Below are positions 22,881 through 49,636 of a DNA stretch of 64,000 nt, one piece after another. Position 1 is the first letter of the stretch; every line of letters starts with the position of its first letter. The notes under the pieces are model-generated. The model saw only the letters and a list, made by a program, of their open reading frames with translations. It was not told the origin of the DNA and did no database searches. Origin of the DNA: Acidilobaceae archaeon (lineage in GTDB: Archaea > Thermoproteota > Thermoprotei_A > Sulfolobales > Acidilobaceae); assembly GCA_027037535.1 (NCBI GenBank), contig JALVZQ010000003.1, positions 330,890 through 394,889 of the forward strand, read 5' to 3'. A program made the translations under genes and the position numbers.

Positions 22881-25487
22881 ATGCTGCGTATACTATCTCT
22901 ACTAATCATATTAATTCTCGTTATAAACAGTATCTCACCTCTCATAGTTAGCGGAACTAATCCGGGCTCTAGGGATCTTGTCCTGGAGGCGTCTCCTCAT
23001 ATTTGGTATAGGATGGCTGAGTCTATGATCACCCTCTTGTACAATTCTAGTTTAGGCCTCTTCAGGGAGACATGGGGGACTTCTGAGGGGAGGTGCTGGT
23101 ATTGGAATACTGAGCAGGGCGAAGCCGCACAGATAACAGTGTTTGCTGATAGGCGAGACATTATTTCTTCTATGCTAGAATCCTATAGGAGGCATCTGGC
23201 ATTCGAAAGTGATGGGTTTGTCTATATGTTTTCTCGATATACTCCATGTAAAACGATCCGAGTCCTATCACTTGACCCATCCAATTTCAGTATAGGAAAC
23301 CTCATAGTAAATATAGGTGGAGACCTAGCGGGAGGGAGAGACGATCCCATCTATTCCAGGGTCATAGCTGTAGGCCTTGACACATACAAGGATCTATCGA
23401 ATTCCTTTGAACGCGTCAATGCTTGGCCGTCCCAGTGGTACGTGATCAACCTAAGATCACACGAGGTATGGTATCGTGCACCAAATGAGACCAGTGATTA
23501 TAAGGGGATATGGGATACGAGCAGTGGAAGCCTAGGCACCGGGCAAATCGTAGACTATGGCATCACATACAACACCACATATATGGACGCATACAGGGTC
23601 ATGAGTGATGGAAGACTCACCTATGAACAACACTTCGTCCTAGAGCCAGGTAAGCCATACATCAAGGCTCTACTCGTTGCAGAGAACACTGGTAATATGA
23701 CTCTTTCCGATGTCCGTGTCTCGTTAGCGTTTGATAACTTGGACTGGTGGCTTTACCAGCTGTTTTACGCTCCAGGGATAGGCTTTATAAACGCCAGCAC
23801 AAGCGGCCAAATCATCAATAATGGCTCAGAGAAAGAATACCATCTAGCCTACTCGTGGACAAGTCAGTGGCAGAAGATAATTGATTCCCAGGGGAACAGT
23901 TGGTGGCCCACAATAATATACTCTAACAAGCCAATCGGCATGAACAGAGCACTACTGGTCCTAGTAGACGGAGAATACGATGTGCACTTATGGGGATACG
24001 GAAACCGTCAAAGCCCAGAAAATTCATCCAATACTAGTACTAGAGGAGATTGGTATTATCGCTGGTTAAAGTATGAAATAATAATCGGCGATCTGGAACC
24101 AGGAGAGTCCAGGGCTATCGAGCTCAGGATCATTCCATTCGCCAGTTACCCTCCAGGCTTGGAACATCTAATCCTAGAAATGGCTAGACACATGGATTCA
24201 TTGGAGGGACGAGATTGGAGCTATGCAGTTAACACAGGTACAGGAGCTTTCAAGGGCCTTGCAATGAGTGTAACCATGCTAGATAACCTAGGCCCAGAAG
24301 ACTACGAGTTCGTAGAAGAGATACTCTATACTGTTAGCACAGTATTCGATAACTGGAACTGGATGGCTACAACAAGGATCCTGAGTAACCTCGCCCTAGC
24401 ATTCCTCTATCTCTACGATTATACAGGAAACGAGACCTATCTAGAGACAGCAGAGAAAATAGCAGACCACATACTAGGCCTCCAGGTTAGAAACATGAGC
24501 GATCCCAGGAACGGGGGCTTCCTAGACGCACCATACCCCTATGGTAAAGCAACATACCTCGATGTAAACGCTGAAGCAGCAAACACTCTACTCGAGCTCT
24601 ATGAACGAACCGGCAACACGACCTATAAGGAGGCAGTCGACTACTGGTTAGAGCACTGGTGGCACAAAGACAATAACGATAAATGGTACTACTATCACTA
24701 TAGGAGCATCGAGGACTCTCCAGGACCCGGCTGGTACAAGGGATACCTAGACAAGGAAGAACCCTATGCCCTAGGATACCTCCTCCAAGCCCTCTCCAAC
24801 GAATACTGGGACGATGAAAGACTACTCGTCTCAGCAAACAGGATCTGGACACTCCTAAACAACAACTACTGGGAGAAAACACGGGAAGACGCCAACGAGA
24901 CCAATGTTGAGACCCAGAGCAGCACCGCCGCCGGACTAAGAGCCTACCTATACAGCATGGCCAAGCGCATAGGAATAGGAATAGAATATGTACGCGGGGG
25001 AACAATCAAAAACATAACATACCATGAACACAGCCGACAACACATCAACAATACAACATGGACACAAGCAACAATAACGATCACCCTCAGAAAACAAGAA
25101 AACACATCAGTAGCCATAGCACTATACATCCCCAATGGCGAAATCATATCAATCCAGACCAACAACACACTAAACAAAACTACAAATCTAACAGAACTAC
25201 AAACCACCAATACAACCTCATACTACTGGGACCACAAGACAAAAATACTCTACATCAAACTAACCACCATAAACACAATCACCCTCACATACAAATATCC
25301 AACCACAACAAAAACAACACAACAATCAACAAATCAGAGCACACAAACATATACCTCCACGGAAAAACAAAACGGATCCGAACAAACACGGCCAAAAACA
25401 TGGAAAAACAAGTTGATCTATGCAACAATCATACTACTCCTAATAATCTACGCCATAATCTTATTCAATAAAAACACTACTAGATAG
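22881..25487 (+). CDS. Large anchored surface protein with alpha/alpha-barrel-like domain
   Basis: 868 residues. Signal peptide (LSLLIILILVINSISPLIVSG), a beta-sandwich-like N-terminal half, then about residues 430-690 with helical repeats typical of six-hairpin glycosidase or terpenoid-cyclase-like barrels (LALAFLYLYDYTGNETYLET, AEAANTLLELYERTGNTTYK, YALGYLLQAL). A Thr/Gln/Ser-rich stalk (TTTKTTQQSTNQSTQT) leads to a C-terminal membrane helix and short basic tail. GGGAGGAAAGC precedes ATG 22881. The final third of the gene is strikingly poor in T on the coding strand. A carbohydrate-active role is inferred from the fold only; I see no catalytic motif I can name. Confidence 0.72.
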   Translation: MLRILSLLIILILVINSISPLIVSGTNPGSRDLVLEASPHIWYRMAESMITLLYNSSLGLFRETWGTSEGRCWYWNTEQGEAAQITVFADRRDIISSMLESYRRHLAFESDGFVYMFSRYTPCKTIRVLSLDPSNFSIGNLIVNIGGDLAGGRDDPIYSRVIAVGLDTYKDLSNSFERVNAWPSQWYVINLRSHEVWYRAPNETSDYKGIWDTSSGSLGTGQIVDYGITYNTTYMDAYRVMSDGRLTYEQHFVLEPGKPYIKALLVAENTGNMTLSDVRVSLAFDNLDWWLYQLFYAPGIGFINASTSGQIINNGSEKEYHLAYSWTSQWQKIIDSQGNSWWPTIIYSNKPIGMNRALLVLVDGEYDVHLWGYGNRQSPENSSNTSTRGDWYYRWLKYEIIIGDLEPGESRAIELRIIPFASYPPGLEHLILEMARHMDSLEGRDWSYAVNTGTGAFKGLAMSVTMLDNLGPEDYEFVEEILYTVSTVFDNWNWMATTRILSNLALAFLYLYDYTGNETYLETAEKIADHILGLQVRNMSDPRNGGFLDAPYPYGKATYLDVNAEAANTLLELYERTGNTTYKEAVDYWLEHWWHKDNNDKWYYYHYRSIEDSPGPGWYKGYLDKEEPYALGYLLQALSNEYWDDERLLVSANRIWTLLNNNYWEKTREDANETNVETQSSTAAGLRAYLYSMAKRIGIGIEYVRGGTIKNITYHEHSRQHINNTTWTQATITITLRKQENTSVAIALYIPNGEIISIQTNNTLNKTTNLTELQTTNTTSYYWDHKTKILYIKLTTINTITLTYKYPTTTKTTQQSTNQSTQTYTSTEKQNGSEQTRPKTWKNKLIYATIILLLIIYAIILFNKNTTR

Positions 25488-25618: not shown

Positions 25619-27976
25619 TTAATAACTATTTTTTCTAACAAACAACAATACTAATAACCCTCCAATCAGGACGGCGATAGACAGACTTACAATTAATAAT
25701 TCTATTCCACTATGACTCCCTAGTATATGATTATCATGAAGATCAATTATTACTCCGTTTACAGTAGGAGGCGAGACTAGAACAAACGGCAAGCCTGCTA
25801 AGTCAGACAATGACGGCATAGTATCATTAGTAATTTTTACCCAGATATATTTCTCAGATACATTAACTCCTTGTAAAGAGCAAAGCTCCCACTTACTACC
25901 ATTAAGCCAATATACGCTAAGCAGTCGCTCACTAACACCTAAGCTGCGTAAATAAGCCTCGTTATAGTAGATCTTGATTAAGACTTCGTTAACTCCATCG
26001 GTTGAATTAATATATACGTCAAAATAATTCGCAAACCTTCTGTCAACAACTAAACTCTTCGGAAACATTGTATAGTTTACAACACCGACCATAACACTCT
26101 TAGAAGAATTAACCTCAACAACTACACCTGCAATATCAGACGCATCTGCAATACCTCCACCACTGGCTATATTATATCTAGCTCCATAACCATCAACAGG
26201 CTCACCAGAGGGCGGAGCAGAACTCAACCACGGACCAAAAGTAACATTCCCACCAATTATACTATCGCCGGAACCAAACCCTATACCAGAAGGACCACTA
26301 ATATCACCCCACCAATTATAAGATGCATTAACTATGTATCCCCTATTATATATACCAACATTATTACCAGTAATCACATTAAAACTGACAGAAACGTTTT
26401 GGGAATCTCGTATCTCGATGCCCTTATCATTATTCGTTATTCTGCTATTCATTACACTAACATTAGAAGAGCTCCATATCCAGATTCCTCTTTGACCATT
26501 GTTTGCTATCTCGGAATTTACTACACTAGCATTTTGAGAATTACATACAAAGATACCCCATCCCCTACTATTGTTTGTTATTGTGTTATTTACTACACTA
26601 ACATTACTAGAAATGCGTATAAGGACGCCTTTCTTATTGTTTGTTATTGTCATATTTACTATGCTAACATTACTAGAAGAAATAATATTTGCTCCTATGA
26701 CATTATTATTTGATATAATAATTCCTTTTAATGTTATGTTATGAGAATTGACAAGTATGGCTTCACCAACGGGATAATTCACCACAATATCACTCTTATT
26801 TTCTAAATACAATAAAGGCAGTCCATTAACGAAACTATTTACCACACTATTATTATATGAATTCCATAGGTTCAAACCGCAATTGACAAAATTAGTGTAA
26901 ATAATGTTGATATTATGAGAATTTAGTATATAGATTCCCTCTTCTTCATTATTTGCTATTAGGCTACTTACAATACTAACATTATGAGAAGATTCTATAG
27001 TGATTCCCTCTTCTCCGCTATTTGCTATAGTGCTGCTTTTTATGCTAACATTATGCGAGTCCAATATCGCGATTCCCTCATCATGATTATTTGTTATTGT
27101 GGAGTTTAATACACTAACATTAGGAGAATGATCGATATATATTCCCCAATAACTATTCGTTATTCTGCTGCTTTTTATGCTAACATTATGCGAATCCTTA
27201 ATCCAAACGCCATATCCATAATTACTCGTTATTGTGTTATTTATTATGCTAACGTTATTAGAGTAAGCAATCCAGATACCCTCTACTTCCTCATGATTTG
27301 TTATTATACTATTTATTATATTGATATTATAAGAAGCATATATATGAACATCTTCGTACCCATTGTTTGTTATTGTATTGTTTACTATAATAACGTTACT
27401 AGAATCCCCTATCCAAACGCCATATCCATAATTACTCGTTATTGTGTTATTTATTATGCTAACATTACTAGAGTACTCGTATATCGCGACGCCCCAACCA
27501 TTATATTTCATCGTATTATTAACTATACTAACATTAGAAGAGGCAACTATATTGACTCCTCCCACATTATTTGTTATTGTGCTATCCATAACACTAATAT
27601 TGCTAGAATTTGCTATATAGATGCCATTATTATAATTGCCGGTTTCACTGGTTATAATTAATTTTTTAAGTGTTATATTAGTCTGGTTACTAATATATAT
27701 TGTTCCTTTTATTGTGTAGTTTTCTCCGTTTAGTGTTATGTTACTTTTGAGTATTTTTATGTTTGCGCTGATATTATCTGTTATTATGTAGGTTTGATTG
27801 TCGTAGGTTATTATGGGTGCGTCTGAGGGTTCTATTGTTCCGTTTTCATATATGTATATTGTTGTTCCAGTCCACGTTTGTTCTCTTATCGATTTTGTTA
27901 TTATAGTATGTGATGGTATGTATGTTAGGAGTATAATTAGAAGTAGGAATATAATTTGGAGTTCCTTAGTGTCCAT
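25619..27976 (-). CDS. Anchored right-handed beta-helix (NosD/pectate-lyase-like) surface protein
   Basis: 785 residues. Signal peptide (IIFLLLIILLTYIPSHT), then from about residue 90 to 560 some twenty or more coils of roughly 23 residues with the pattern S-x-N-V-S-I-V-N-N-T-I-T-N-N (for example SSNVSIVNNTITSNYG). This is a parallel beta-helix of the PbH1/NosD type. A beta-sandwich follows (SVMVGVVNYTMFPKSLVV), then a membrane helix (LLIVSLSIAVLIGGLLVLLFV). Most coils carry two glycosylation sequons (NVS, NNT). I place the start at ATG 27976 after AAAGGTGGG; a GTG at 27988 overlaps that site. Likely a glycan-binding or S-layer-associated fibre; no enzyme residues can be assigned. Confidence 0.85.
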   Translation of the reverse strand: MDTKELQIIFLLLIILLTYIPSHTIITKSIREQTWTGTTIYIYENGTIEPSDAPIITYDNQTYIITDNISANIKILKSNITLNGENYTIKGTIYISNQTNITLKKLIITSETGNYNNGIYIANSSNISVMDSTITNNVGGVNIVASSNVSIVNNTMKYNGWGVAIYEYSSNVSIINNTITSNYGYGVWIGDSSNVIIVNNTITNNGYEDVHIYASYNINIINSIITNHEEVEGIWIAYSNNVSIINNTITSNYGYGVWIKDSHNVSIKSSRITNSYWGIYIDHSPNVSVLNSTITNNHDEGIAILDSHNVSIKSSTIANSGEEGITIESSHNVSIVSSLIANNEEEGIYILNSHNINIIYTNFVNCGLNLWNSYNNSVVNSFVNGLPLLYLENKSDIVVNYPVGEAILVNSHNITLKGIIISNNNVIGANIISSSNVSIVNMTITNNKKGVLIRISSNVSVVNNTITNNSRGWGIFVCNSQNASVVNSEIANNGQRGIWIWSSSNVSVMNSRITNNDKGIEIRDSQNVSVSFNVITGNNVGIYNRGYIVNASYNWWGDISGPSGIGFGSGDSIIGGNVTFGPWLSSAPPSGEPVDGYGARYNIASGGGIADASDIAGVVVEVNSSKSVMVGVVNYTMFPKSLVVDRRFANYFDVYINSTDGVNEVLIKIYYNEAYLRSLGVSERLLSVYWLNGSKWELCSLQGVNVSEKYIWVKITNDTMPSLSDLAGLPFVLVSPPTVNGVIIDLHDNHILGSHSGIELLIVSLSIAVLIGGLLVLLFVRKNSY
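27201..27253. repeat. 53-base exact intragenic repeat, copy 1
   Basis: Identical to 27411-27463, offset 210 bases (70 codons, three beta-helix coils). Lies inside the beta-helix gene and indicates recent duplication or gene conversion of coils. Confidence 0.9.
27411..27463. repeat. 53-base exact intragenic repeat, copy 2
   Basis: Second copy of the repeat at 27201-27253. Flanks diverge immediately on both sides. Confidence 0.9.
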
Positions 27977-28353
27977 TGATTTACCCACCTTTTTATTTTT
28001 TTCGTTTTTGGTTGTTTTTATGTTTTATGTGTTTATTTGTGTTTTTATTATGTGAAATTATAGAGTATTTAATTTAATTACTATATAGACAAATTATGGT
28101 TAATGATAGCAGTTACATACTTAGTCAAAAATATTTCTTTTTCTAAGAGATTTTAACCCATAAAGTTAGGAATGGTTGCTCTATTGTTTTATTGCAATCT
28201 TATTCTGTTTGTTATGAATACTTATCAAGGTTTATTGCAGCTATTTTTCTTCCTTGCTTTGTTAGTGCAAGTATTGCTAGCTAGTAATTGATATGTGGAG
28301 ATAGCATGGTGCCTTGTGGGTTAGCATCCTAATTCGAGGAATTTAGCTAGAAT
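27977..28353. other. Intergenic region with a possible regulator relic
   Basis: About 375 bases: the promoter of the beta-helix gene, then a stretch where the minus strand at 28212-28280 encodes LAILALTKQGRKIAAINLDK, which resembles the C-terminal helix of a winged-helix regulator (LTKxGRKIA), directly after a stop. Too short to name; possibly a remnant. Confidence 0.3.
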
Positions 28354-28952: not shown

Positions 28953-29134
28953 AATTGTAATCCCCCTGTTATTTATTAGTAGTCGTCGATGTATATTAGT
29001 CGGTATGTTCCTTATCTAGGTCGTTCTTGTATATGTTTGTCTGTGAAGTGTATGTTGCTATGCACCTTGTTTGTATTATTGAATGATTGAATACAGGGTT
29101 CTAGTTGTTATATGGTTGCCTTATTTAGGTGTCC

Positions 29135-29142
29135 TATATAAA
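29135..29142 (+). promoter_or_regulatory. TATA box of beta-propeller gene
   Basis: TATATAAA about 56 bases before the proposed TTG start (29191), which would give a short leader containing GGTGAT. A second, TTATATAG at 29172-29179, is too close to the start to serve it. Confidence 0.45.
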
Positions 29143-29190
29143 CGGTTAATAATCAATGAGCTAAGATTAACTTATATAGTGGTGATAGAT

Positions 29191-31257
29191 TTGTCTATAA
29201 GAAGCGTTCTTAACCGACAGGTATTTTCAACGATTATGTTATTCCTTATGGTTACAAGTCTTGCTTTGGGAACTGGACATGCCGGACTACCATATGGCCC
29301 GTACCAGGAGGTTATGGGACTAGCGCTATTCCTAAATATTGACGTCAATAATACTATTGTCGGCTACAAGTTCCTATATCAAGATAATCTAGTCCTGGTG
29401 TTGATGAATAGATCTACGGGACAGTATTCCCTTCATTTAATACAATATAATGGCGGCCACACGTTTGTTCCTCTCCCAGATGATATAGGTCTAGTGAACT
29501 ATATCAGTAGTAGCCCAGATGGAAGTGTAATGCTCGTCGATGGGTTCGACAAGAACGTGGTTAGGAAAACATGGATCGTAAACGTAAACACGTTGAATGT
29601 GTCTGAACTGAACTTATCCATGCCTGGACTACAGGAGACAGGAGTCTCTCCTGACTGGAATAAAAGCAGGCTACTCGTGGTTCAAACCAACTATACTAAT
29701 ACAATTGTATCATCTTATAGTATTAGTGATCTTTCAAGGATATGGAGTTTAGATCTAGGTCCCTCTATAGGTGTAAGAGCCTTTACATGCCAGGATAATT
29801 ACTTAATTATATTGGAGAATGAGACCGACTCCATAATTTATAGAATTGGACGAGACGGAGAACTTATCGATGAGAAGAATGTTGGTATCCGGGGGAAAAC
29901 TGTACCTTTAGGAGACTGTAGTAAGCTAGCCGTCTATGTCACCAATAGTGGCCTATACCTAGTTGACTTGGGATCAGGAGATCTCACATTCGTGCACGGG
30001 GTCTCTGGATATCTTGAAGATCTCTTCCCTAGCCCTCAAGGTGATTATATCGCGGTACTAGTCTCAGAGTACTTTATGGGAGGAAATAAGACAATATACG
30101 TGGTCTCTAGTAGCGGAAACGTTGTGTTCAGTGATACTTATCCTAGGATCGAGAAGATATCATGGTCTCCATCGGGCATACTCGGATTCCTTGCGGGTAA
30201 CACAACATTCTACTCGGATAGACTAGTACTAGTAGACACCTCCTCCAATACTAGTACTATTATAGGACCATTTACAGGTCCTGTTACTGCATATGGATGG
30301 TACGAGGACTCTTTATACATGGCTTATTCATCGGGCTATGCTAGCCCTACATATATTAGGGTATACAATTCTAGCATGGATATAGTCGTCGATCAATCCA
30401 TAGGACTTCCACTTCGACTAGATAGTCTTCTAATAACTAGTGTAGAAGGCCAGCAAGTGATTTATTATGTGGGAACTTATTATGACATGGATACAGATTC
30501 AATACATTCCCTTGTAATGGGATACGTGCTCCGGGAGGGCATGGTGATTTCATGGACTCCTGTAAAGGAGATAGTTGCAATACCTGACAAGAATCATGAG
30601 ATAGTTACGATCAGCGATACCAAGAGTACAGATGGGCTAAACCTATCGTATACTCTTACATACTCTCATGGAACAACGATAACGTATACCTCGGGTACAG
30701 GCGATGAATACTACCAGACGTTTATTAATGGAGTCGTAGTAGCAATTTATGCTACTGCTACTGGAAGCGGTGAGGCACAGATTATCTTAACCAGTCCTAT
30801 GGCATTAGAAGCTATCATACTGGATCAAGGAAACACTAGCGGAGCGCAAGTAGTCGTTGATAATGAAACACATGTACGAATAATCCTAAGTCCTGATAGT
30901 GGAACAGCAAGCATAGAAGACACCGTCATAGCCTTCAAATACCCCGTAGACCAGCCATTGCCGGATATGGAGCTCCTCAACTATACGATAAGCCTTGAAC
31001 CTTCAGTAGAAACGGGTTCGGGACAAACAACTACTACAAGCCAGTCAACGGGCTCTGGACTTGAAATTACCGGGACAAATGAAGGAAAAAGTGAGACCTC
31101 TAGTCCTGCTGCAGCTATAGAGCAACCAGCAGAGTCCCAGTCAAGCGAGACGACGAATATAACTGGCGAGCAGGGCTCAAGTAGTATAATGAAGATATTA
31201 GCAATTGTAGTGATCATCGCTATTATCATAATTGCTATACGGTTCCTAAAGAAATAG
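29191..31257 (+). CDS. Anchored beta-propeller surface protein
   Basis: 688 residues from TTG 29191, which follows GGTGATAGAT; the frame is open to 29083 but that extension has no ribosome site. Signal peptide VFSTIMLFLMVTSLALGTGHA. Then propeller-like repeats (ISSSPDGSVMLVDGF, VSPDWNKSRLLVV, LFPSPQGDYIAVLVS, KISWSPSGILGFLAG), a beta-sandwich, a Ser/Thr/Gln/Glu-rich stalk (GQTTTTSQSTGSG) and a C-terminal helix MKILAIVVIIAIIIIAIRFLKK (in part). Same architecture as the pair at 45-49.6 kb, without obvious close identity. Likely part of the cell envelope; ligand unknown. Confidence 0.75.
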   Translation: MSIRSVLNRQVFSTIMLFLMVTSLALGTGHAGLPYGPYQEVMGLALFLNIDVNNTIVGYKFLYQDNLVLVLMNRSTGQYSLHLIQYNGGHTFVPLPDDIGLVNYISSSPDGSVMLVDGFDKNVVRKTWIVNVNTLNVSELNLSMPGLQETGVSPDWNKSRLLVVQTNYTNTIVSSYSISDLSRIWSLDLGPSIGVRAFTCQDNYLIILENETDSIIYRIGRDGELIDEKNVGIRGKTVPLGDCSKLAVYVTNSGLYLVDLGSGDLTFVHGVSGYLEDLFPSPQGDYIAVLVSEYFMGGNKTIYVVSSSGNVVFSDTYPRIEKISWSPSGILGFLAGNTTFYSDRLVLVDTSSNTSTIIGPFTGPVTAYGWYEDSLYMAYSSGYASPTYIRVYNSSMDIVVDQSIGLPLRLDSLLITSVEGQQVIYYVGTYYDMDTDSIHSLVMGYVLREGMVISWTPVKEIVAIPDKNHEIVTISDTKSTDGLNLSYTLTYSHGTTITYTSGTGDEYYQTFINGVVVAIYATATGSGEAQIILTSPMALEAIILDQGNTSGAQVVVDNETHVRIILSPDSGTASIEDTVIAFKYPVDQPLPDMELLNYTISLEPSVETGSGQTTTTSQSTGSGLEITGTNEGKSETSSPAAAIEQPAESQSSETTNITGEQGSSSIMKILAIVVIIAIIIIAIRFLKK

Positions 31258-32315: not shown

Positions 32316-35300
32316 TTATCTTCTTTTTATCAATATTATTAGTATTAGTATAATTGCTACCGCGGCTATTATATATGTTATAGGTATTCCTTGGGTAGGA
32401 GAGGTTTCTGACTCGCTTGTTGTCTCGGTTTGAGTTTCTCCTGTCTGTTCGCCTTGCTGGGTTTGTTGTCCTGGTGGCGGCGTTGTAGTAGTTTCTTCTC
32501 CTGCTCCAGCTAGGTTTACTTGGGAGTATGCGTAGTTGTCGGGGTTGTACATTTCACTGATCCTTGCCGGAATCACGTCTTGTAGGGTTATATTTTCAAC
32601 TAGTGGTTTTAGTAGTACTTGTATGGATGTTGTTCCTGCTTGTAATTGTTCGATTGCTACTGCTACTAGGGCGCCGTGGTCTTCTACTGCGTAGCCTTGT
32701 TGTCTTAGAGAATCAAGGTCTATACTGTATCCTGCTGGTACTGGTATTTCTAGGACTAGATAGTAGAGCGGCTGGCTTGATGATACTAGTATTGTTGACG
32801 GTATTGATCCATCTGGGTTTTGTTCCTCAATGTTCCATGTGAGCGATAACCCTTCTCCTTGTAGAGTTACCTTATTGTTGTCTAGTCTTTCTCCTTTTAC
32901 CGGTGCCAGCGTTGTTGTAGTCCAGTAGTATGTCTCCACAGTGATATATGCTGATCCCTCTGTGCTTGTTACTTCTAGTTCGAATGTATTGTTTCCTATA
33001 GCTAGTTCTGGGTAAAGTGTTACTTTCTCGCCTGGTGCTAGGCTCCCGCTCCATATCGCTTGATTATTTAGATATAATACTAGTGATACCGGTGTAGTTG
33101 TTAGGGAGTAGTGTCTTAGCATTTGCAGTGTGCCGACTACTACTGCCCCGGTCCTAGTGGTGCTGTGGAGCCAGTTATCCGCGCTTTGTATTAGCCAGGC
33201 TAGGCCCTGGTTGGTTGTATCGGTCCATCCCTGTACATAGTATAGTGCTTGGATGGCGTATGCTGTTGTTACTTCTGTGCTATGGCTCCATCCATAAGTG
33301 GTAGAGGTCCAGTATATTGTTTCTCCATCTGAGATTCCATTGTTTACTAGCCAGTCTGCAGAGGACGACAGTGCATTGTTAACGAGTGCTTGTAGCGTGC
33401 TGTTAGGTGTTATGCCTGGTACTTGTGCTAATGCGATCATTACTAGGGAGGTGACGTATGGGTCTCCGGTGGTTGATGATTCAGGTCCCCAGCTTCCATC
33501 GTCTAATTGGTTTGATAATAGGAACATTGTAGCGTTGTCTATTACGGCTATATCGAAGGGTTCACTGTAGCCGTAGTTCTGCAAGTTGTGGTATGTTAGT
33601 GACAGGGCATATAGTATGTATGCGGTTAGTTCTATTCTGTCATCGACGTAGTCAGGTGAAACAGGTGTCCATCCTCCGTCTGGATCTTGAGTATTTATAA
33701 AGTACTGTGACGCGTTATACATTGCGCCTGGGATAGTGTTTCCTCCGGTGCTGACCGGGAGATATATACTGTTGTCGAAGGCCCACTCCGCTGTCTTTAC
33801 AAGGCCTTCTAATACGTATGCTGTGAAGAAGGGTGTTGAATCATATTCTGGGAACCAGCCCCATCCTCCATCTGGTTTCTGGAGATCAACTAGTTCTAGT
33901 GCGCCGCCTATTACTATCTGGGTGTATTCTTGATATTCTTCTTCTGTCATGCTGCCTTCATAGTATGACAGATATAGTATCGCGTTGAGGCTCGCTAATA
34001 GTTTGCTTGTTCTTTGCTCTGCGCATCCATATGGGTATGCTATTAGATCCTTTATTTCGCTTATGTATATGACTGTTGGCTTAGTTGAGATTGTGACTGT
34101 AGTTGTCTCATAGAGTAAACTTGATGGGAGCTCGTGGCTTAGGATTGCTGGTTCGTCTGGAGTGGCTTCCCCGGCACTAAATATTGCGTATTGGTATGGG
34201 GAAGGCAGTATTTTTATATAGTTGGTTCTTTTTGTCGTGTAGTTTCCTACTAGATCGCCGGTTTCATTATATGCAAGATATGATATGTGCAACGTTACAA
34301 TGGTGGTGCCCACGTTGTGGAGGACCTGGAATAAGTATGTGTTAGTATATGATTCTCCTGGAGCGAGTGTGAATTGATCGGTAATGGGTGGAGTTAGTTC
34401 TGGATCTAGGAATGCAGATTCGTATTCTAGCTCTGTAGTGACCTCGTATGTGAGGTTTTGTTGGTTCGTGTTTGTAATGTTGAATGATATGGGTATTGTC
34501 TGGTCCCAGTATGCTGATGGCGGTGTTTGTAGCTCTGCTGATAATTGTCCGAAACCTGGTAGTAGTGATGCTAGCTCTGATAGCATTGTAGTGTCATTGG
34601 TGTATGCATATGCGTAGATGTAAGTGGCTTTTTCGCCTGGTTGTAGTGAGAGTTTCCATGTTAGCCCGACTACGATATCTCCTGTAGTGATTACTTCTCC
34701 GTTTAAATTAATTGTTTCTGGAGGATCCTCTCCGTGATAATATGCCACGTATGCTCCGTTGAAGGTATCGAATGATCCTATGATTATTCCCATAGGATAG
34801 TTTGTTTCTTGGTCTATTTGGAGTAGCCAGGGTTCGCTGAACTCGTTTTTGTCTAGGAAAGTCTCGACTGTTAGTCTCGTTATCTGGTTGTCTATGGGTG
34901 CTAGTATATAGTCTCCTGAGGCTCCTACGATGTCGAGATCCATATATTCTTCGTATAACATATTGGTATAGCTTTGTGTTCCATTGTTTGTAATGGTTGT
35001 TTTGACTATGAGGAGTGGTACCTCGTTCATCATTATGAATTCTCTCTCGATGTATAGTCCGGTGCCCGTATCGTATCCCTGATGTTGAATAGCGTATATA
35101 TCTGTCCTATTTGTCGTTTCAACATAATTGTTCCATGTAAAGTCTCCTGAATCAACGATAGCGTACTCCGAATAGTTTCCGTCGTATATACCGAAGTCGT
35201 TCAAATACATGATGTTTGAATCAAGGTCCATTAGTGGAACTGCTGCGAGACTATCTATGGTTCCATAGTCTAGCTCGGTATACAAGTATTGGCTCTGGAT

Positions 35301-35453
35301 CTCCATGTTAAGTCCTGGAGGGCTATGAGTTATCTCGTCGTCTTGCATATCTGATGTTTGTGCTGTCCCAGTAAAGCTTGTCGTTGGAACAACCGATAAT
35401 ATCATTATGACCAGTAGGAGTATTCCGAGTATCCCTTTATTTTTATATTTCAA
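32316..35453 (-). CDS. Alpha-2-macroglobulin-like thioester protein, membrane anchored
   Basis: 1045 residues from TTG 35453, after GGGGGAT. Signal peptide (ILGILLLVIMILSVVPTTSF). Residues 30-420 hold beta domains, including a macroglobulin-like segment (SAYWDQTIPISFNITN). YPYGCAEQRTSKL places the thioester Cys477 and Gln480 as in C-x-E-Q macroglobulins. An alpha/alpha toroid follows to about 770 (LQKPDGGWGWFPEYDS, TAYVLEGL, DDGSWGPES). Near 860-960 PVPAGYSIDLDSL and PARISEMYNPDNYAYSQV match the receptor-binding domain. A Thr/Gln-rich stalk and a membrane helix ending KRR close it. The usual bait region is not evident, so it may trap proteins covalently or be structural. Related bacterial proteins inhibit proteases. 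Confidence 0.82.
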   Translation of the reverse strand: MKYKNKGILGILLLVIMILSVVPTTSFTGTAQTSDMQDDEITHSPPGLNMEIQSQYLYTELDYGTIDSLAAVPLMDLDSNIMYLNDFGIYDGNYSEYAIVDSGDFTWNNYVETTNRTDIYAIQHQGYDTGTGLYIEREFIMMNEVPLLIVKTTITNNGTQSYTNMLYEEYMDLDIVGASGDYILAPIDNQITRLTVETFLDKNEFSEPWLLQIDQETNYPMGIIIGSFDTFNGAYVAYYHGEDPPETINLNGEVITTGDIVVGLTWKLSLQPGEKATYIYAYAYTNDTTMLSELASLLPGFGQLSAELQTPPSAYWDQTIPISFNITNTNQQNLTYEVTTELEYESAFLDPELTPPITDQFTLAPGESYTNTYLFQVLHNVGTTIVTLHISYLAYNETGDLVGNYTTKRTNYIKILPSPYQYAIFSAGEATPDEPAILSHELPSSLLYETTTVTISTKPTVIYISEIKDLIAYPYGCAEQRTSKLLASLNAILYLSYYEGSMTEEEYQEYTQIVIGGALELVDLQKPDGGWGWFPEYDSTPFFTAYVLEGLVKTAEWAFDNSIYLPVSTGGNTIPGAMYNASQYFINTQDPDGGWTPVSPDYVDDRIELTAYILYALSLTYHNLQNYGYSEPFDIAVIDNATMFLLSNQLDDGSWGPESSTTGDPYVTSLVMIALAQVPGITPNSTLQALVNNALSSSADWLVNNGISDGETIYWTSTTYGWSHSTEVTTAYAIQALYYVQGWTDTTNQGLAWLIQSADNWLHSTTRTGAVVVGTLQMLRHYSLTTTPVSLVLYLNNQAIWSGSLAPGEKVTLYPELAIGNNTFELEVTSTEGSAYITVETYYWTTTTLAPVKGERLDNNKVTLQGEGLSLTWNIEEQNPDGSIPSTILVSSSQPLYYLVLEIPVPAGYSIDLDSLRQQGYAVEDHGALVAVAIEQLQAGTTSIQVLLKPLVENITLQDVIPARISEMYNPDNYAYSQVNLAGAGEETTTTPPPGQQTQQGEQTGETQTETTSESETSPTQGIPITYIIAAVAIILILIILIKRR

Positions 35454-35714
35454 ATCCTTTCAATCCCCCTATTTATACTAAAAGGTATCTTCGTTTTACT
35501 AGATTGTAGACAGAGATTATAACACTAGATTAATAATTAATATATGTCAGCGACTATGATAAGTATCTGTTAATAGATTTTCGTATAATGTTACTGTTTG
35601 GTTTTCAACAAGATCTTTTTTGTCTATTGTATGGTGTGAAACGCCTATATGTCAATATTTTATAAATCTAGACAAATAATCCTAGTGTAAACACATGAAT
35701 TAAGGTGACACTAA

Positions 35715-37250
35715 TTGATCTTAACACCCAGAGAGTATCCTTACATGAATTTGGCAATAGCTACTGAAAATCCAGTGGCGGGCTCAGTAGGCCTTTATAT
35801 TAGCTCGATTGGAGGCAATCCTATAGACGTTTCAGTAGCTACTAGTATTGCTCTGTCAGTGACTGTTCCTCAGCTGGGAGGTATGGGAGGCGATTATTTT
35901 GCACTAATCAGCACACCAGAGGGTAGAGTCGAAGTAATAATGGGATCAGGCCAGTCACCCTCCAAACTAACACTAGAAAGAATACATGGACTCGAGGGCA
36001 AGTGGCAGACTATGAGGGGACCATTAACTATCGTAGTCCCAGGGATGCTAGATGCACTTTACACTATTTGGAAAAAATACGGTACCCTAGAATGGAAAGA
36101 CCTCGTCAAGCCCTCAATAGACCTGGCTAGGAAGGGAATACCTGCACCACCAGCCTTCACATCGGCGGTAAAGAGAAATCTACGTGTCCTCTATAGTGAT
36201 CCTGGAAGCAGACAAACATACCTACAAAATGGCCCTGTTGAAATAGGTCAGAAAATATCATATCCTGGAATGGCAAAAATGCTCGAGACAATATCAGAGG
36301 ATCCTAGATCTTTCTACAATGGGGAAATCGCGGAAGCAGTAGCAAACTACGTACAAAGTAATGGAGGTCTATTATCAAAAAGTGATATGAAAAACTATCA
36401 CTCGTATATAGATGAGCCACTAGTGCTAGAATCATATCATGGATGGAGGATATACGAAATGCCTCCTAATACCCAAGGAGCCACAACTCTGCACTTACTC
36501 AAATTACTAACGAATACACCATACGATCCCGTCGGGAGACTATCCTTACTAATCGAGAAATCTAGAATAGCCTATAGTATCAGAGACCTCCATATAGGAG
36601 ATCCTAGCAATATGACACTTACAAGAGAAGACTTATTGTCTGACAAGATTCTAAATGATACAATAATACTGGACAAGTATAAACCTGAAAAATGTAATCC
36701 ATTCATGAAACCATTAAATTATGATACGACCTTCCACGCAGTGGCATCAAAAGAAGGCTGGTATATTGCCTCGATACAAAGCCTATACTATCATTTTGGA
36801 AGCGGAGTAACAGAACCAAAATATCAGATAACACTAAATAATCGGGCAATAGGCTTCACGCCTACACCGGGTCTACCAAACACTTTAGGACCGGGGAAAA
36901 GACCATTGCACACGCTCTCAGCTGTCATCGCAGAAAATCCCGTAACGAGGGAGGTTCTCATACTTGGTACCTCCGGTGGACAGTATAGGCCGCAACAACA
37001 TGCATTGATGGTTTCAAGCATACTAGAACATGGTATGAGCATAGGTAAGGCGATTGCTGCTTCTAGAGCCCTATGGACTCCCGGGACTTGCAGCATTGTC
37101 TCAGATCCCGGGGTACCCGAATATAGCTTTCCTCCTGGATTTATAGTTAACATAGGACGAACAGGCGTTGCCTCGGCAATACTATATCAGGATAATGTAT
37201 TATGGACGGCGACAGATCCGAGGGGGGATGGTTATCCATATGGAACATGA
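35715..37250 (+). CDS. ggt: Gamma-glutamyltransferase (gamma-glutamyltranspeptidase)
   Basis: 511 residues from TTG 35715, after TAAGGTGAC. GGNPIDVSVATSIALSVTVP and GGMGGDYFALI are the N-terminal family blocks. YDTTFHAVASKEGW contains the predicted autocleavage site and N-terminal nucleophile Thr338. TPGLPNTLGPGKRPLHTLSAVI and LGTSGGQYRPQ line the glutamyl pocket. The enzyme transfers or hydrolyses gamma-glutamyl groups; no signal peptide is seen, so it may be cytoplasmic, as in many archaea where glutathione is absent and the true substrate is unknown. A T-run at 37269-37274 may terminate it. Confidence 0.92.
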   Translation: MILTPREYPYMNLAIATENPVAGSVGLYISSIGGNPIDVSVATSIALSVTVPQLGGMGGDYFALISTPEGRVEVIMGSGQSPSKLTLERIHGLEGKWQTMRGPLTIVVPGMLDALYTIWKKYGTLEWKDLVKPSIDLARKGIPAPPAFTSAVKRNLRVLYSDPGSRQTYLQNGPVEIGQKISYPGMAKMLETISEDPRSFYNGEIAEAVANYVQSNGGLLSKSDMKNYHSYIDEPLVLESYHGWRIYEMPPNTQGATTLHLLKLLTNTPYDPVGRLSLLIEKSRIAYSIRDLHIGDPSNMTLTREDLLSDKILNDTIILDKYKPEKCNPFMKPLNYDTTFHAVASKEGWYIASIQSLYYHFGSGVTEPKYQITLNNRAIGFTPTPGLPNTLGPGKRPLHTLSAVIAENPVTREVLILGTSGGQYRPQQHALMVSSILEHGMSIGKAIAASRALWTPGTCSIVSDPGVPEYSFPPGFIVNIGRTGVASAILYQDNVLWTATDPRGDGYPYGT

Positions 37251-37313
37251 ATCCTTCTCAACCGTAACTTTTTTCCAAAACAAAGCATATTACTCATATG
37301 GGGTTAACTAGTT

Positions 37314-38093
37314 ATGAGCAGGCTACTAGTTATAAGCGATATACATGGTAACCATGATGCCCTGAGAGGTATTATCGATAATGTTGAACGCTATGATGAG
37401 ATAATTGTCTTGGGCGACTTAGTTGACTATGGGCCTGAGCCAGGAGAAGTCATTGATTTTCTCAGAGAGCATGGGGCTAGATTTGTACGTGGTAACCATG
37501 ATGATGCTGTTGGTTATGGTAGGGATTGTAGGTGTGGTGAGAGTACTCACTGGGTTAGTGTTTGGTTTAGAGAAAATATTACGAATAAACTATTGGGAGA
37601 AAACGATAAAGGGTTTTTGAGGAGTTTACCGGAGAGACTAGTATTTCAACTGGATAGTATTATTGTTGAAGCTGTCCACGGTAGTCCTGCTAGCCCACTC
37701 TATGGGTACCTGTATCCGAATATCGACGACCAAGAATTATGTAGTGTGCTTAGGCCAGGGCTTAGGCTGCGGGATAAGAGTAGAGAGAAGGAGTGCCCTG
37801 TGGGGAAAGTGTTCTTAGTAGGGCATACTCATATCCAGTTTCTGAGAACCGTTAAGGGTACGCTAATCGTTAATCCTGGAAGCGTTGGCCAGCCTCGTGA
37901 CGGTGATCCTAGGGCAGGTTATCTTCTCATAGACACGGATAACGATAGCTTTATGCTTGGTAGAGTCAAATATGATGTTGAGAAGACAATTAATAAATTA
38001 AGAGCGCTGGGTATACCTGATCCTTATTATGGATTCCTAGTACAGATATTGAGGGAGGGTATTGTTCCTCCTAGACCCTGTAGAGAAAAATAA
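37314..38093 (+). CDS. Calcineurin-like metallophosphoesterase (YfcE/phosphodiesterase type)
   Basis: 259 residues. Metal-binding motifs in order: D9-x-H11 (ISDIHGNHD), GDLVDYG (D35), GNHDD (N61, H62), EAVHGSP and GHTHIQF. NPGSVGQPRDGDPRAGY is typical of the single-domain protein-phosphatase/phosphodiesterase group. A CRCG pair sits near residue 72. Soluble cytoplasmic enzyme; substrate unknown. It starts 63 bases after the GGT gene on the same strand. Confidence 0.9.
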   Translation: MSRLLVISDIHGNHDALRGIIDNVERYDEIIVLGDLVDYGPEPGEVIDFLREHGARFVRGNHDDAVGYGRDCRCGESTHWVSVWFRENITNKLLGENDKGFLRSLPERLVFQLDSIIVEAVHGSPASPLYGYLYPNIDDQELCSVLRPGLRLRDKSREKECPVGKVFLVGHTHIQFLRTVKGTLIVNPGSVGQPRDGDPRAGYLLIDTDNDSFMLGRVKYDVEKTINKLRALGIPDPYYGFLVQILREGIVPPRPCREK

Positions 38094-45196: not shown

Positions 45197-47338
45197 TTAT
45201 TGTCTACTCCGTAGTAGATACCCTATTCCTATTAGTATTGCAATTGCTGCTATCATAATTATTATAATCTTGTTCGGTCCTAGTTCTGTGTGTTCCACGG
45301 TTGTACTTGTATTGTTTTCTTCTTGTAATTCCTTAGCCAAGTCTAGAGAGTTTAACGACGTGTTCGTTGCCTTAACGACGTGTTGAGATATAATTTCATT
45401 ACCTTTCATTAGTTCTACTGTATACTCGCCGGGTACTACATATATTATGGTCTCATTTCCAGTGCCCGGTATTCTAGTTGTTCCCCCGGGTCCAGAGATC
45501 TCAACAGTGTAATTCTCCGGGATGATTATTCTGATCTGTGATAGTGGTATTTTTATAAGTTTGGCTTCTCCTCGATGAATATTGATATTATAACTTGTGT
45601 TTGCTAGAATAACTGGTGAATTACTTGTGGTTGTGAGTGAATATTCTCCTGGAGCTATGTAGTATTCTTTTCCGGGTTCTATTCTATATGCTTGGTTTGT
45701 CTGGAGATCGTAGAGCGTAATCGTTATGTTTTCAGGAGCTTCTACATGTAATGTACCAAGTAGGTTCTGGTAATCAAGGTAGAGCTCGGCTGGATTTTCT
45801 GCAGTAATGTTTACTATCGTGGAGCTAGTGAGGCCTGCTCTGGATCCAATATAGTTTTCTGGCTTTGGGAGCGTGATCGTTATACTATATTTCCCGGGTG
45901 GAAGATAGGTTTTCAGAGTACTGGAGCCAGCTATGATACTGTAGAGGGTGTACCCGCTAGTTATATTAGCTATTTGGATCTCTGCTCTGGGAATTGTGTG
46001 TACAGTCAGCAATGTATTCTTTATTATGCTTGCTTCTAATAATGTAAATGCTATTATGGTTTTTGCCGCGTATGAATACGTGTTTATCCTAGTGTAATAT
46101 ATTGCGTTAGGATTGTTCGGAGACTGTACTGGGAAGATTTCTTGATTTATGAAGTCGCGGGCATGTACCTCGTATGAAGATATCCATTGTGTTGTTGTTT
46201 CTTGAGAGCTAATATTAATGAATAGGATTGCTAGTTTTTCTGTCTCGCTTTGCAAATTATATCGGGCTTCCACAAATGTGATTAATGATGTGTTTCTGAG
46301 TGCTTGTGTTCCACAGCATAGTCTCTTGTCTGTACTTAATTCTATTATTGGATTGCCTGGGGTGGTGTTCATGTTTATGATGTATATTTTGTTGTCTGTT
46401 CCTATTAGGAGGATATCGGTTTGATTATCGAGGGTTAGCCAACTGTTGGTTAGTATATCGCTCGTTATGTTAATAGTATATGTTAAATGAAGTGTTCTCG
46501 ACGTAGGATTGTACTCGTAAATGAGTGGGATTGAATTGTTTTGTAGCCCGGTTGAAAGATATTTTCCACTCGGACTCCATTGTATTCCGGACGGGGCAAT
46601 GTATGTGGTTTCCGTTGTGATTGTCGAGGACTCATATATTTTTTCGAAATTATTGTTCATTAATATGATTTTCCAGTTTTTAGACTGATTCTGTTCAATG
46701 CTATCGTTATAGTTGTATCCCGATATAGCTAACAAACCATACTTGTTATTATAATCGATGCTTCGGATCGTGAAGTTCTCTATTCTGGTCTCACCTTGGA
46801 AGGTGCCATTACAGTTGAGTTTAATTATTTTGCTAGATACTCCTTGGAAGAATCCTATTAAGTAATATGACCAGTTGTATTCGTCTCCTAATATTGTTGA
46901 ATCTATTTTGAGTTTATAGTCCTTAGATGTATCGATTCCTGCCAAGTATATTGTGCCGTTATTCTTGTCGAACGTGACACTGTTAACGACAGTATCGTTT
47001 AGAGTTATTACTTTCTCGAGTCTAGGTATGCCGTTACTAATATTTACAATTATTATATTGGAAAATGACAAGTTACCGTATTCTTCTACGGGTGTATAAT
47101 ACAAGCTAACCGTATAAATGAGATTATTGTTGCATAGAATAGCCCTATTAGTATTCATAAGATACGGACCTGAGCTATATGAGTCTTCTGGCCCTTCTAT
47201 AGTAGCACTAACTGTGCCGGCCTCATTCCAGACAACGCTATATGGCGAACCCTGTATCTCGAGAGACCAAGCATGTATACTTGTTGCAACAAATAATATG
47301 AAGAGAACTAGCAAGCCATACCTCTTATACAGAGACAT
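45197..47338 (-). CDS. Anchored beta-propeller/PEGA-like surface protein (paralogue B)
   Basis: 713 residues. Signal peptide (YGLLVLFILFVATSIHAW), a propeller-like region (GIQWSPSGKYLSTGLQNNS, IDYNNKYGLLAISGYNY), then three short PEGA-like units with Y/A-P-G-E/K-Y turns (LPPGKYSITITLP, IAPGEYSLTTTS, VVPGEYTVELMKG), a stalk and a membrane helix (IIIIMIAAIAILIGIGYLL). It is a clear paralogue of the next gene in order and motifs (GGTTRIPG versus GGSTVIEG; LLGTLHVEAP versus LLGRFVISTP). 27 bases downstream of that gene, so cotranscribed. Confidence 0.8.
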   Translation of the reverse strand: MSLYKRYGLLVLFILFVATSIHAWSLEIQGSPYSVVWNEAGTVSATIEGPEDSYSSGPYLMNTNRAILCNNNLIYTVSLYYTPVEEYGNLSFSNIIIVNISNGIPRLEKVITLNDTVVNSVTFDKNNGTIYLAGIDTSKDYKLKIDSTILGDEYNWSYYLIGFFQGVSSKIIKLNCNGTFQGETRIENFTIRSIDYNNKYGLLAISGYNYNDSIEQNQSKNWKIILMNNNFEKIYESSTITTETTYIAPSGIQWSPSGKYLSTGLQNNSIPLIYEYNPTSRTLHLTYTINITSDILTNSWLTLDNQTDILLIGTDNKIYIINMNTTPGNPIIELSTDKRLCCGTQALRNTSLITFVEARYNLQSETEKLAILFINISSQETTTQWISSYEVHARDFINQEIFPVQSPNNPNAIYYTRINTYSYAAKTIIAFTLLEASIIKNTLLTVHTIPRAEIQIANITSGYTLYSIIAGSSTLKTYLPPGKYSITITLPKPENYIGSRAGLTSSTIVNITAENPAELYLDYQNLLGTLHVEAPENITITLYDLQTNQAYRIEPGKEYYIAPGEYSLTTTSNSPVILANTSYNINIHRGEAKLIKIPLSQIRIIIPENYTVEISGPGGTTRIPGTGNETIIYVVPGEYTVELMKGNEIISQHVVKATNTSLNSLDLAKELQEENNTSTTVEHTELGPNKIIIIMIAAIAILIGIGYLLRSRQ

Positions 47339-47365
47339 TGCATAGACCCCTCTCCCTGTTAGCCA

Positions 47366-49636
47366 TTATTTGGCCTTCAAATAGCGTATAGCGAACAATA
47401 TTACAACTACTACACCGATCAAAAATACGCTACCAAGGATATTGTTATTAGGTGAATCCTGTGTTTGATTTTCAGATTCCGTCTGCGTATAGCCCAGGGC
47501 GTCATACATTACTATGTCTCCTCCTTTTAGATATAAAGTGCTTGTTCTCTCCTCTCCGCTCTCCAGATTAACGAGTTTAATCGTATAGTTGCCTGGTATA
47601 ACCCACAGTGTTGTTATCCCTTCCACCCCCTCTATTACTGTTGATCCGCCAGGTCCTCTAACAATTACTTTATGATAATTGTTTGTAGCAATATATAACT
47701 GTGCTAGCGTGAGATTCATTTTGTAGATCTCTCCCTGTTCTATGTCTATCGTATATGTTGAATTTACAAGATAAGTAGGATTATTACTCGAGATCTTCAC
47801 CATGTATCTCCCAGGAGCTAAATAATAGAGTGTAGACTGATTGATTATTATTCCATGGCTTCTATGCATCTCATAAAGCTCTACTGTTATATTCGTATTC
47901 GACGGAGTACTTATCACAAAGCGGCCGAGAAGATGATTATAATCTAGGAATAATTCTACTGATTCATTCCTTGATAATACGACGTTCCTAGCCTGTGCTA
48001 GTATGCCGTTTGGCCCAATATAATTATTAGGTTTAGGTAGTTGGAAAAGTATGGTGTAGGTCGATGGTTTATTATAATAGATTATTGTCTTGGTAACCGC
48101 AGTTATTTTGTCGATATAGTGTGATTCTGAACTGCTAATGTTGATCATGGCTCCAGGCTCTGTATGGATGACTATGCGAGACATGTTTGTGATAGAGATT
48201 ATATCAAAATAAGTATCTAGTATAATCGTGTTGTTCCCTGATATGTATTCTAGTTTATAGGGCCTCGGGTATGTTATTATGTAGTCCCCGTTTGATGGAT
48301 ACCTGTATTGGTTACCAGTTATTGGTAACATATTGAGTCTTAACGACGGAGTATTCCATGTCGTAACACTATAATGTACAGGGATTATCGTCGGGGTCCC
48401 ATTATAATTATAAATGTAGAGTCCCCTTATTGAGCTCTGGGGTATTAGTCTCCACGAGTAATTGGGGAATAAAAAGTATTCAGCATAGTTTAGAATAAAT
48501 GTAGTCAGTGGAAGATCCTTGATAGGTTGATTGCCGCAGCATATAATCATACTCGTTGCTATACTCGTGTTATAATGAGTAGTAATCTTGAATTCACTGT
48601 TTTCAATATTATAGATGTAAAGGCTTGATCGATTTCCTAATAGTAGAGTATCGTTGTATCCGATCCATGATAGTGTTAGTAGTGGAGATTCGATAATGGT
48701 GTTCTCTACCAGTGCCTCGCCCAGGGTATTGTTCTCCACGCTATACAAGTATATTACTGGATGATTCTCTCTGAGGTGTCCTGCGGCTAGATACGTACCT
48801 GTTGGACTCCATTTTATCCCGGTGGGTGGAACTATCATGGTGTCTAATGGATATTTGTTAGACTCGTATATTGTCCTTAGACTCGTCGCATTTAGTACAA
48901 GTATATTCCAGTCGTTTAGGATTAACTCTTCGTTACTACCTGGGCTCACCAGAACAGGGTAACCTTCTATTGCGAGTAGGTTATGGACGGGATTATAGTC
49001 TATGCTCTCTATAGAGTATCCATAGTAGCCTTTTTGTGAAATTATGTTCATGCCACAGTCTAGTTTTAATATTATACTCCTAGCCCCGATTATCTGGTTA
49101 TATAGGAATCCTACTTGTTCTCCCGATATCATTGATACTTGGAGCTCCTCCTCATGAATATAGAGCGGGTATTCTGCGTCGATAGACGATATGTAGAAAG
49201 TATCGTTCTTGCCTTGTGCTAGATCGGTTATTATCATTGAATTGAATCTCTTTAGCTTCTGGAATTCATAACTGTTAGTTTGGGGATCGTATTTAACTGT
49301 AAAGAGTTCTGCGATTGCTTGGTATGAGGAGTCATTGGTTAAAGCAATGACATTAATAGCATATACAGGTGAACCGTTGCATTGAACGTATTCGGGGACT
49401 CCAATTATTGTTGCATTGGACGCGTTGAATGGTATATTATCAATAGTGTAGGTTGAGTTTGATAGTCCACCGCGTATAGTTGTGACTGGCGATCCGATTA
49501 TTTCTAGGTTAAGATATGGATAGGTAATGGAGTGTGTTGGTAGACTTGTAAGCATGACTATTGTTGTTAGTAGGAATACGGCTATAGATTGTTTCTTTGG
49601 CAATTCCCTCTTACCTAGTATTATGTTGTGAGACAC
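47366..49636 (-). CDS. Anchored beta-propeller/PEGA-like surface protein (paralogue A)
   Basis: 756 residues from GTG 49636. Signal (SIAVFLLTTIVMLTSLPTHS), propeller region (GIKWSPTGTYLAAGHLREN, SIDYNPVHNLLAIEGY), PEGA-like units (LAPGRYMVKISS, WVIPGNYTIKLVN) and a C-terminal helix (GSVFLIGVVVVILFAIRYL). Numerous N-x-S/T sequons and a CC pair (ICCGNQPI, CCGTQAL in the paralogue). A TATA element about 30 bases upstream implies a nearly leaderless message. The pair likely forms a hetero-complex at the cell surface. Function unknown. Confidence 0.8.
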   Translation of the reverse strand: MSHNIILGKRELPKKQSIAVFLLTTIVMLTSLPTHSITYPYLNLEIIGSPVTTIRGGLSNSTYTIDNIPFNASNATIIGVPEYVQCNGSPVYAINVIALTNDSSYQAIAELFTVKYDPQTNSYEFQKLKRFNSMIITDLAQGKNDTFYISSIDAEYPLYIHEEELQVSMISGEQVGFLYNQIIGARSIILKLDCGMNIISQKGYYGYSIESIDYNPVHNLLAIEGYPVLVSPGSNEELILNDWNILVLNATSLRTIYESNKYPLDTMIVPPTGIKWSPTGTYLAAGHLRENHPVIYLYSVENNTLGEALVENTIIESPLLTLSWIGYNDTLLLGNRSSLYIYNIENSEFKITTHYNTSIATSMIICCGNQPIKDLPLTTFILNYAEYFLFPNYSWRLIPQSSIRGLYIYNYNGTPTIIPVHYSVTTWNTPSLRLNMLPITGNQYRYPSNGDYIITYPRPYKLEYISGNNTIILDTYFDIISITNMSRIVIHTEPGAMINISSSESHYIDKITAVTKTIIYYNKPSTYTILFQLPKPNNYIGPNGILAQARNVVLSRNESVELFLDYNHLLGRFVISTPSNTNITVELYEMHRSHGIIINQSTLYYLAPGRYMVKISSNNPTYLVNSTYTIDIEQGEIYKMNLTLAQLYIATNNYHKVIVRGPGGSTVIEGVEGITTLWVIPGNYTIKLVNLESGEERTSTLYLKGGDIVMYDALGYTQTESENQTQDSPNNNILGSVFLIGVVVVILFAIRYLKAK

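Follow-up and report, generated by a model that had tools for sequence, protein, structure and literature searches.

A candidate surface thioester protein in an Acidilobaceae archaeon

The window analyzed here, a stretch of 64,000 nucleotides from the genome of an Acidilobaceae archaeon (assembly GCA_027037535.1, contig JALVZQ010000003.1, positions 330,890 to 394,889), carries on its minus strand a gene whose 1045-amino-acid product belongs to the alpha-2-macroglobulin (A2M)/thioester superfamily and is, on balance, probably a cell-surface thioester protein anchored to the membrane at its C-terminus. The gene is intact and present as a single copy in the host genome. It comprises a thioester domain (TED), macroglobulin (MG) domains, the last of them the C-terminal macroglobulin domain (CTMG), and the further features listed below, where pLDDT stands for the predicted local distance difference test of the structural model.

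32316 to 35453, minus strand: whole gene, TTG start, 1045 amino acids (open reading frame list, TTG start in the sister species, PF07678 match)
35361 to 35453, minus strand: hydrophobic N-terminus resembling a signal peptide, residues 1-31 (hydropathy)
34548 to 35345, minus strand: N-terminal domain, residues 37-302, probable beta-supersandwich, GH94/GH116/YidC-like (AF2, Foldseek, Pfam, hhalign)
34209 to 34544, minus strand: macroglobulin (Ig-like) domain before CUB-TED, at the position of eukaryotic MG7, residues 304-415 (start of the hhalign match; all-beta, pLDDT 50-76)
34068 to 34208, minus strand: N-terminal half of the CUB domain, residues 416-462, approximate (hhalign register)
33105 to 34067, minus strand: TED, alpha/alpha toroid, residues 463-783 (PF07678, Foldseek, purifying selection)
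34029 to 34037, minus strand: YPY, residues 473-475, TED half of the thioester shield, corresponding to Tyr1175 and Tyr1177 of Salmonella A2M (SaA2M) (gap-free alignment to E. coli/Salmonella YPYGCLEQ)
34014 to 34028, minus strand: thioester motif GCAEQ, residues 476-480 (sequence)
32859 to 33104, minus strand: C-terminal half of the CUB domain, residues 784-865, approximate (hhalign, MAFFT alignment)
32499 to 32858, minus strand: CTMG or receptor-binding-like domain, residues 866-985 (hhalign to bacterial CTMG/MG10; the alignment ends at MYNPD)
32547 to 32552, minus strand: Met968-Tyr969, other half of the shield, corresponding to SaA2M Met1625-Tyr1626 (invariant in archaeal and bacterial sequences)
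32397 to 32498, minus strand: stalk rich in Thr, Ser, Glu and Gln, residues 986-1019 (sequence)
32319 to 32396, minus strand: C-terminal transmembrane anchor, residues 1020-1045, with a KRR end (hydropathy; modelled helix 1025-1044)

The copy of the sister species, 91-93% identical, keeps both the GCAEQ motif and the TTG start, and a TATA-like stretch, TATAAATA, lies shortly 5′ of the start codon. The N-terminus (residues 1-31) gave a weak match, below the cut-off, to the model TIGR04207 (halo_sig_pep), and at the other end the stalk and the anchor together are the least conserved part between the sister species (85%). The host genome encodes two full-length reverse gyrases, which supports the hyperthermophilic host assumed in an initial annotation made from the letters of the window. 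That annotation had placed GCAEQ with Cys477 and Gln480 in the open reading frame 32316-35453, which the open reading frame list and the sequence reproduce exactly, and had described an alpha/alpha toroid, a receptor-binding-like domain, a stalk and a C-terminal anchor, all of which we found by modelling, hhalign and hydropathy.

The thioester domain and its motif

The TED was recognized by the Pfam model PF07678 on residues 464-757 (E=3.6e-16; score 59.6 bits, cut-off 22), and the sequence-nearest thioester proteins in the PDB are E. coli A2M (1.4e-6) and mosquito TEP1 (4.4e-7, obtained with a two-row profile). The full-length AF2 model (three rows) has a mean pLDDT of 45.5, yet the TED helices are confident; it was too poor for thioester geometry and just its family-level Foldseek result was used, in which all of the top 50 PDB matches are complement, A2M, CD109 or thioester-containing (TEP) proteins. 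The isolated C4A TED (1hzf) is among these matches with a target-normalized TM of 0.70. Together with an hhalign probability of 99.0%, reported below, the family model above its cut-off and the structural matches uphold the membership in the A2M/thioester superfamily that had been claimed from the letters. The matches to squalene-cyclase-like toroids reflect the common QxxDGGW repeat, and a cyclase is contradicted by the thioester motif and by the flanking CUB and CTMG domains.

The GCAEQ motif is kept in three species, namely the host, its sister species and the carrier of a 36%-identical homologue of 1059 amino acids, so that the loss in close homologues against which the initial annotation had been hedged was not observed. 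Cys477, inside the motif and three residues away from Gln480, is the sole cysteine among the 1045 residues, and the sole cysteine of the homologue, Cys484, is likewise in GCAEQ. The ratio of nonsynonymous to synonymous divergence (dN/dS) between the sister species was 0.04 for TED residues 518-783, the lowest in the protein, and 0.10 for the supersandwich-like domain. Complement C3 and C4B carry a histidine in the loop after the thioester motif. The archaeal alignment with the 36%-identical homologue contains no invariant histidine in this loop, so a conserved catalytic histidine as in C3/C4B was rejected and amine targets (lysine) appear likelier than hydroxyls.

The C-terminal half resembles bacterial A2M and retains the residues of the thioester shield

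A profile of the archaeal proteins was compared by hhalign with a profile built from the C-terminal halves of five bacterial A2Ms (Meiothermus, three Deinococcus and E. coli), and the two aligned with a probability of 99.0% (E=8.4e-18) over 605 columns, covering residues 304-977 without rearrangement. By this alignment the order MG-CUB-TED-CUB-CTMG is present in the archaeal C-terminal half; no Pfam model for the receptor-binding-like domain matches, despite the hhalign support. In Salmonella A2M, Tyr1175 and Tyr1177 of the TED and Met1625 and Tyr1626 of the C-terminal domain shield the thioester, whereas in animal A2M-family proteins all four shield residues come from the C-terminal domain (PMC4498604). 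All four bacterial shield residues are found at the aligned positions of the archaeal sequence, Y473 and Y475 in YPYGCAEQ and M968 and Y969 in MYNPD. Judged by its sequence, the C-terminal half is thus of the bacterial and not of the animal type, and the complete shield suggests that the reactivity of the thioester would be regulated rather than constitutive.

A probable beta-supersandwich in place of the N-terminal macroglobulin domains

None of the Pfam models for the bait region (A2M_BRD, PF07703), MG2, bMG5 or other macroglobulin domains matched the archaeal protein (PF07703 gave nothing at E<=1); the identical library recovers MG2, bMG5 and bait-region domains in Meiothermus A2M. Since no bait-region domain is recognizable, classic protease trapping is disfavoured and a classic snap-trap appears unlikely from the sequence. 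The initial annotation had noted that most N-terminal macroglobulin domains seem missing; the shortening stands, but these domains are not merely absent and have apparently been replaced. An AF2 model of residues 37-302 alone reached a pLDDT of 48 and a predicted TM score (pTM) of 0.54, and its Foldseek matches (about 1e-5 to 1e-4) are predominantly beta-supersandwich proteins: GH94 phosphorylases, cyclic glucan synthase, GH116, GH149 and the YidC periplasmic domain. The best Pfam family for the same residues was GH94_b-supersand (E=0.046, by itself not significant), and a comparison by hhalign with nine archaeal GH94 supersandwich domains scored 25.0, the maximum of 60 column-shuffled controls being 21.7, with the C-terminal strands of both domains in register. 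The model and, more weakly, the sequence comparisons point to a beta-supersandwich, an assignment that we consider likely. In GH94 enzymes the supersandwich domain is mainly structural.

A fragment of another surface protein from the same taxonomic order (L025:2-646, plus strand) weakly resembles the end of the supersandwich-like domain (E=0.005) and continues into a Thr-rich stalk and a membrane anchor; anchored proteins of this sort may form a larger family. Within the window, an 868-amino-acid surface protein (22881-25487, plus strand; P0002) was considered as a further carrier of this N-terminal domain and rejected, hhalign being no better than with shuffled columns. It has no significant Pfam match and consists of a beta-rich N-terminal half, a helical middle with weak GlcNAc_2-epim similarity, a Thr-rich stalk and a C-terminal membrane anchor.

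Distribution and genomic neighbourhood

The gene was detected in 3 of the 214 genomes of the order, all three in one genus; two further genomes of this genus (77% and 92% complete) gave no match, so its presence within the genus may be patchy. The named relatives are metagenome-assembled genomes labelled Acidilobaceae and Desulfurococcales. When the archaeal profile was run over a 398-genome sample of the phylum, it picked up, besides this gene, one distant thioester protein and one motif-less toroid. The TED family model mostly returned toroids without a thioester motif from the phylum; most of these other matches are prenyltransferase- or cyclase-like, and a real motif is present just in the genomes G393 and G291, the latter missed by the family model. 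These belong to a second, distantly related thermoproteotal group whose A2M-like proteins carry YPFGCAEQ, and the proteins encoded at L015:1455-4739 (minus strand) and L016:264-3350 (plus strand) also carry the Met-Tyr pair. Their open frames, as seen, have no obvious signal peptide, and this second protein may be intracellular or differently exported; the gene in G393 adjoins a Ser/Thr protein kinase-like gene with membrane segments. No relatives were found in viral contigs, and the matches in phage and plasmid collections were bacterial A2Ms (one in an unannotated short phage record), mostly confined to the motif region.

The neighbours of the thioester gene are genes for a GPN GTPase, a gamma-glutamyltransferase-like protein and a propeller-like surface protein, and no hypervariable or toxin-module genes of the VARTIG/conflict-module A2M type were seen among them. 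This neighbourhood is conserved just with the near-identical species and differs around the 36%-identical homologue, which indicates a stand-alone gene. The propeller-like protein (29083-31257, plus strand; 724 amino acids) has a Thr/Ser stalk and a C-terminal anchor, and its gene, read from the other strand, lies past the GPN GTPase gene, an order kept in the sister species. Another large surface protein of the window is a NosD-like right-handed beta-helix repeat protein of 789 amino acids with a C-terminal membrane segment (25619-27988, minus strand).

Synonymous divergence (dS) between the sister species was about 0.37 for the thioester gene and 2.7 for the adjacent gamma-glutamyltransferase. 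A recent transfer of the gene between these species is not claimed from the low value, the genome identity being a mosaic in which other blocks also reach 90-99%. In the comparison of window positions 34900-38000 with L058, the thioester block shows about 90% DNA identity and the adjacent gamma-glutamyltransferase and phosphoesterase genes about 70%, with dS near saturation; in that of positions 45200-47400 with L059, the gene at 45197-47338 is about 99% identical. The pattern suggests interspecies recombination, one breakpoint lying close to the thioester gene. In G004, a genome of the same genus, the gamma-glutamyltransferase homologue (L050/L051, G004:C14:2940-4468) is split into two matches with a stop, which may reflect gene breakage or faulty assembly.

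Proposed mechanism and alternatives

We propose that the protein captures or adheres to its targets covalently while tethered to the cell surface, by means of a bacterial-type A2M C-terminal half that stands behind an N-terminal beta-supersandwich and is fired by a bait-free trigger; to this reading, together with the surface location and the C-terminal anchoring, we assign a rough probability of 0.55. At rest the TED would be docked on the C-terminal domain, an arrangement that we infer, with Y473/Y475 and M968/Y969 keeping the thioester dry. Undocking would expose the bond, which would then acylate a nearby nucleophile, most likely a lysine amine, and the acylated target would be fixed covalently on the archaeal surface. 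In bacterial A2M it is the cut bait domain that displaces the TED from the C-terminal domain (PMC4498604); with the bait domain missing here, something else must act as the trigger, most likely engagement of a ligand by the supersandwich domain, a pulling force or proteolytic cleavage of a linker. The role of the protein would most likely be covalent capture or adhesion at the surface, the partner being another cell, the surface layer or an attacking protein. A narrower version, in which the supersandwich senses a surface ligand and frees the shielded thioester, making the protein a complement-like opsonin or adhesin that acts on its own close to the growth temperature, is put forward tentatively.

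Several observations weigh against the proposal. The internal thioester between Cys477 and Gln480 is deduced from the motif, and the supersandwich call comes from a model of mean pLDDT 48 and weak sequence scores. The gene neighbourhood points to no trigger, target or role: the genes around the two 36%-identical homologues are not the same. In human A2M, moreover, the internal thioester causes heat fragmentation (PMC8167298), so an intact thioester near the growth temperature of the host may be short-lived. The initial annotation had remarked that such a bond would be chemically demanding at very high temperature; the novelty attached to this is weakened: PF07678 also matches in Thermotoga maritima (a control; family match alone) and the thermophile Meiothermus taiwanensis has an intact motif, GCSEQ, so that the high-temperature setting alone is not unprecedented.

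The same evidence bears on other functions. A membrane-tethered protease trap, in which a hidden bait in the linker at about residues 416-445 or between domains is cut, the TED is freed and the protease becomes coupled to Gln480 as in E. coli A2M, would fit the bacterial-type CTMG and TED with their complete shield, and bacterial A2Ms are membrane-anchored and were proposed as inhibitors of invading proteases (PMC4498604). We consider it unlikely, given that no PF07703 domain or equivalents of MG1-6 were found, that the displacement of the TED by a cut bait domain (PMC4498604) has no visible counterpart, and that the linker is poorly conserved against the 36%-identical homologue. It is similarly doubtful that the thioester couples to S-layer glycoproteins or neighbouring cells soon after export, as a constitutive adhesin or structural staple. 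The anchor and stalk, the missing bait domain and an N-terminal domain whose fold is common in carbohydrate-active enzymes would suit such a cross-linker, but carbohydrate binding by this domain is putative and the retention of all four shield residues suggests regulated reactivity. That the toroid no longer makes a thioester and GCAEQ is a leftover in a structural surface protein seems very improbable to us: thioester formation is predicted from the sequence, and very high temperature would favour hydrolysis or autolysis (PMC8167298), but both lineages, 36% identical, have kept their sole cysteine at the motif, the shield residues are retained and the TED is the most constrained part of the protein.

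Relation to known systems and significance

The closest comparison for the proposed surface capture protein is bacterial type I A2M (E. coli YfhM/ECAM, Salmonella SaA2M and the MG2 proteins of Meiothermus and Deinococcus), which shares the collinear MG-CUB-TED-CUB-CTMG order, YPYGCxEQ, the Met-Tyr pair and an extracytoplasmic, membrane-anchored setting. Unlike it, the archaeal protein lacks MG1-6 and the bait-region domain and has the supersandwich-like domain instead, its anchor is a C-terminal transmembrane segment and not an N-terminal lipoprotein, and its gene does not adjoin a PBP1c gene. Insect TEP1 and complement C3/C4 have the TED fold and the internal thioester motif in common with it, but animals retain the full macroglobulin ring and draw the shield wholly from the C-terminal domain (PMC4498604). 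The N-terminal model, of low confidence, is assigned by Foldseek to the fold seen in the YidC periplasmic domain and in the supersandwich domains of GH94, GH116 and GH149 enzymes; unlike in these enzymes, it is not joined to a catalytic glycoside hydrolase domain.

Archaeal A2M homologues with a CxEQ TED were described by Makarova et al. in 2021 (PMC8416519), whose main text reports 27 proteins in 24 genomes, mainly of Halobacteria and Methanomicrobia, with halophiles and methanogens named, and which are likewise exported and diverse in architecture. As described there, some of their neighbourhoods carry conflict-system genes, none of which were seen here; the main text, supplementary tables excepted, names no crenarchaeal member and no supersandwich domain (PMC8416519). 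A literature search for a supersandwich combined with a thioester domain returned no paper. Archaeal A2M/TED proteins as a kind are therefore already known, and the novelty lies in the architecture, in the confinement to a single hyperthermophilic genus and in the fully retained set of shield residues.

If the proposal holds, the covalent thioester machinery of complement and A2M would occur, stripped of its classic trigger, in a surface protein of a hyperthermophilic crenarchaeon. Two questions would then become accessible to experiment: by what means a reactive thioester is preserved and set off in extreme heat, and whether the half from TED to CTMG is already the smallest working unit, the macroglobulin ring and the bait region being exchangeable triggers. 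With its single cysteine the protein would be a convenient test object and possibly a heat-stable reagent for covalent capture.
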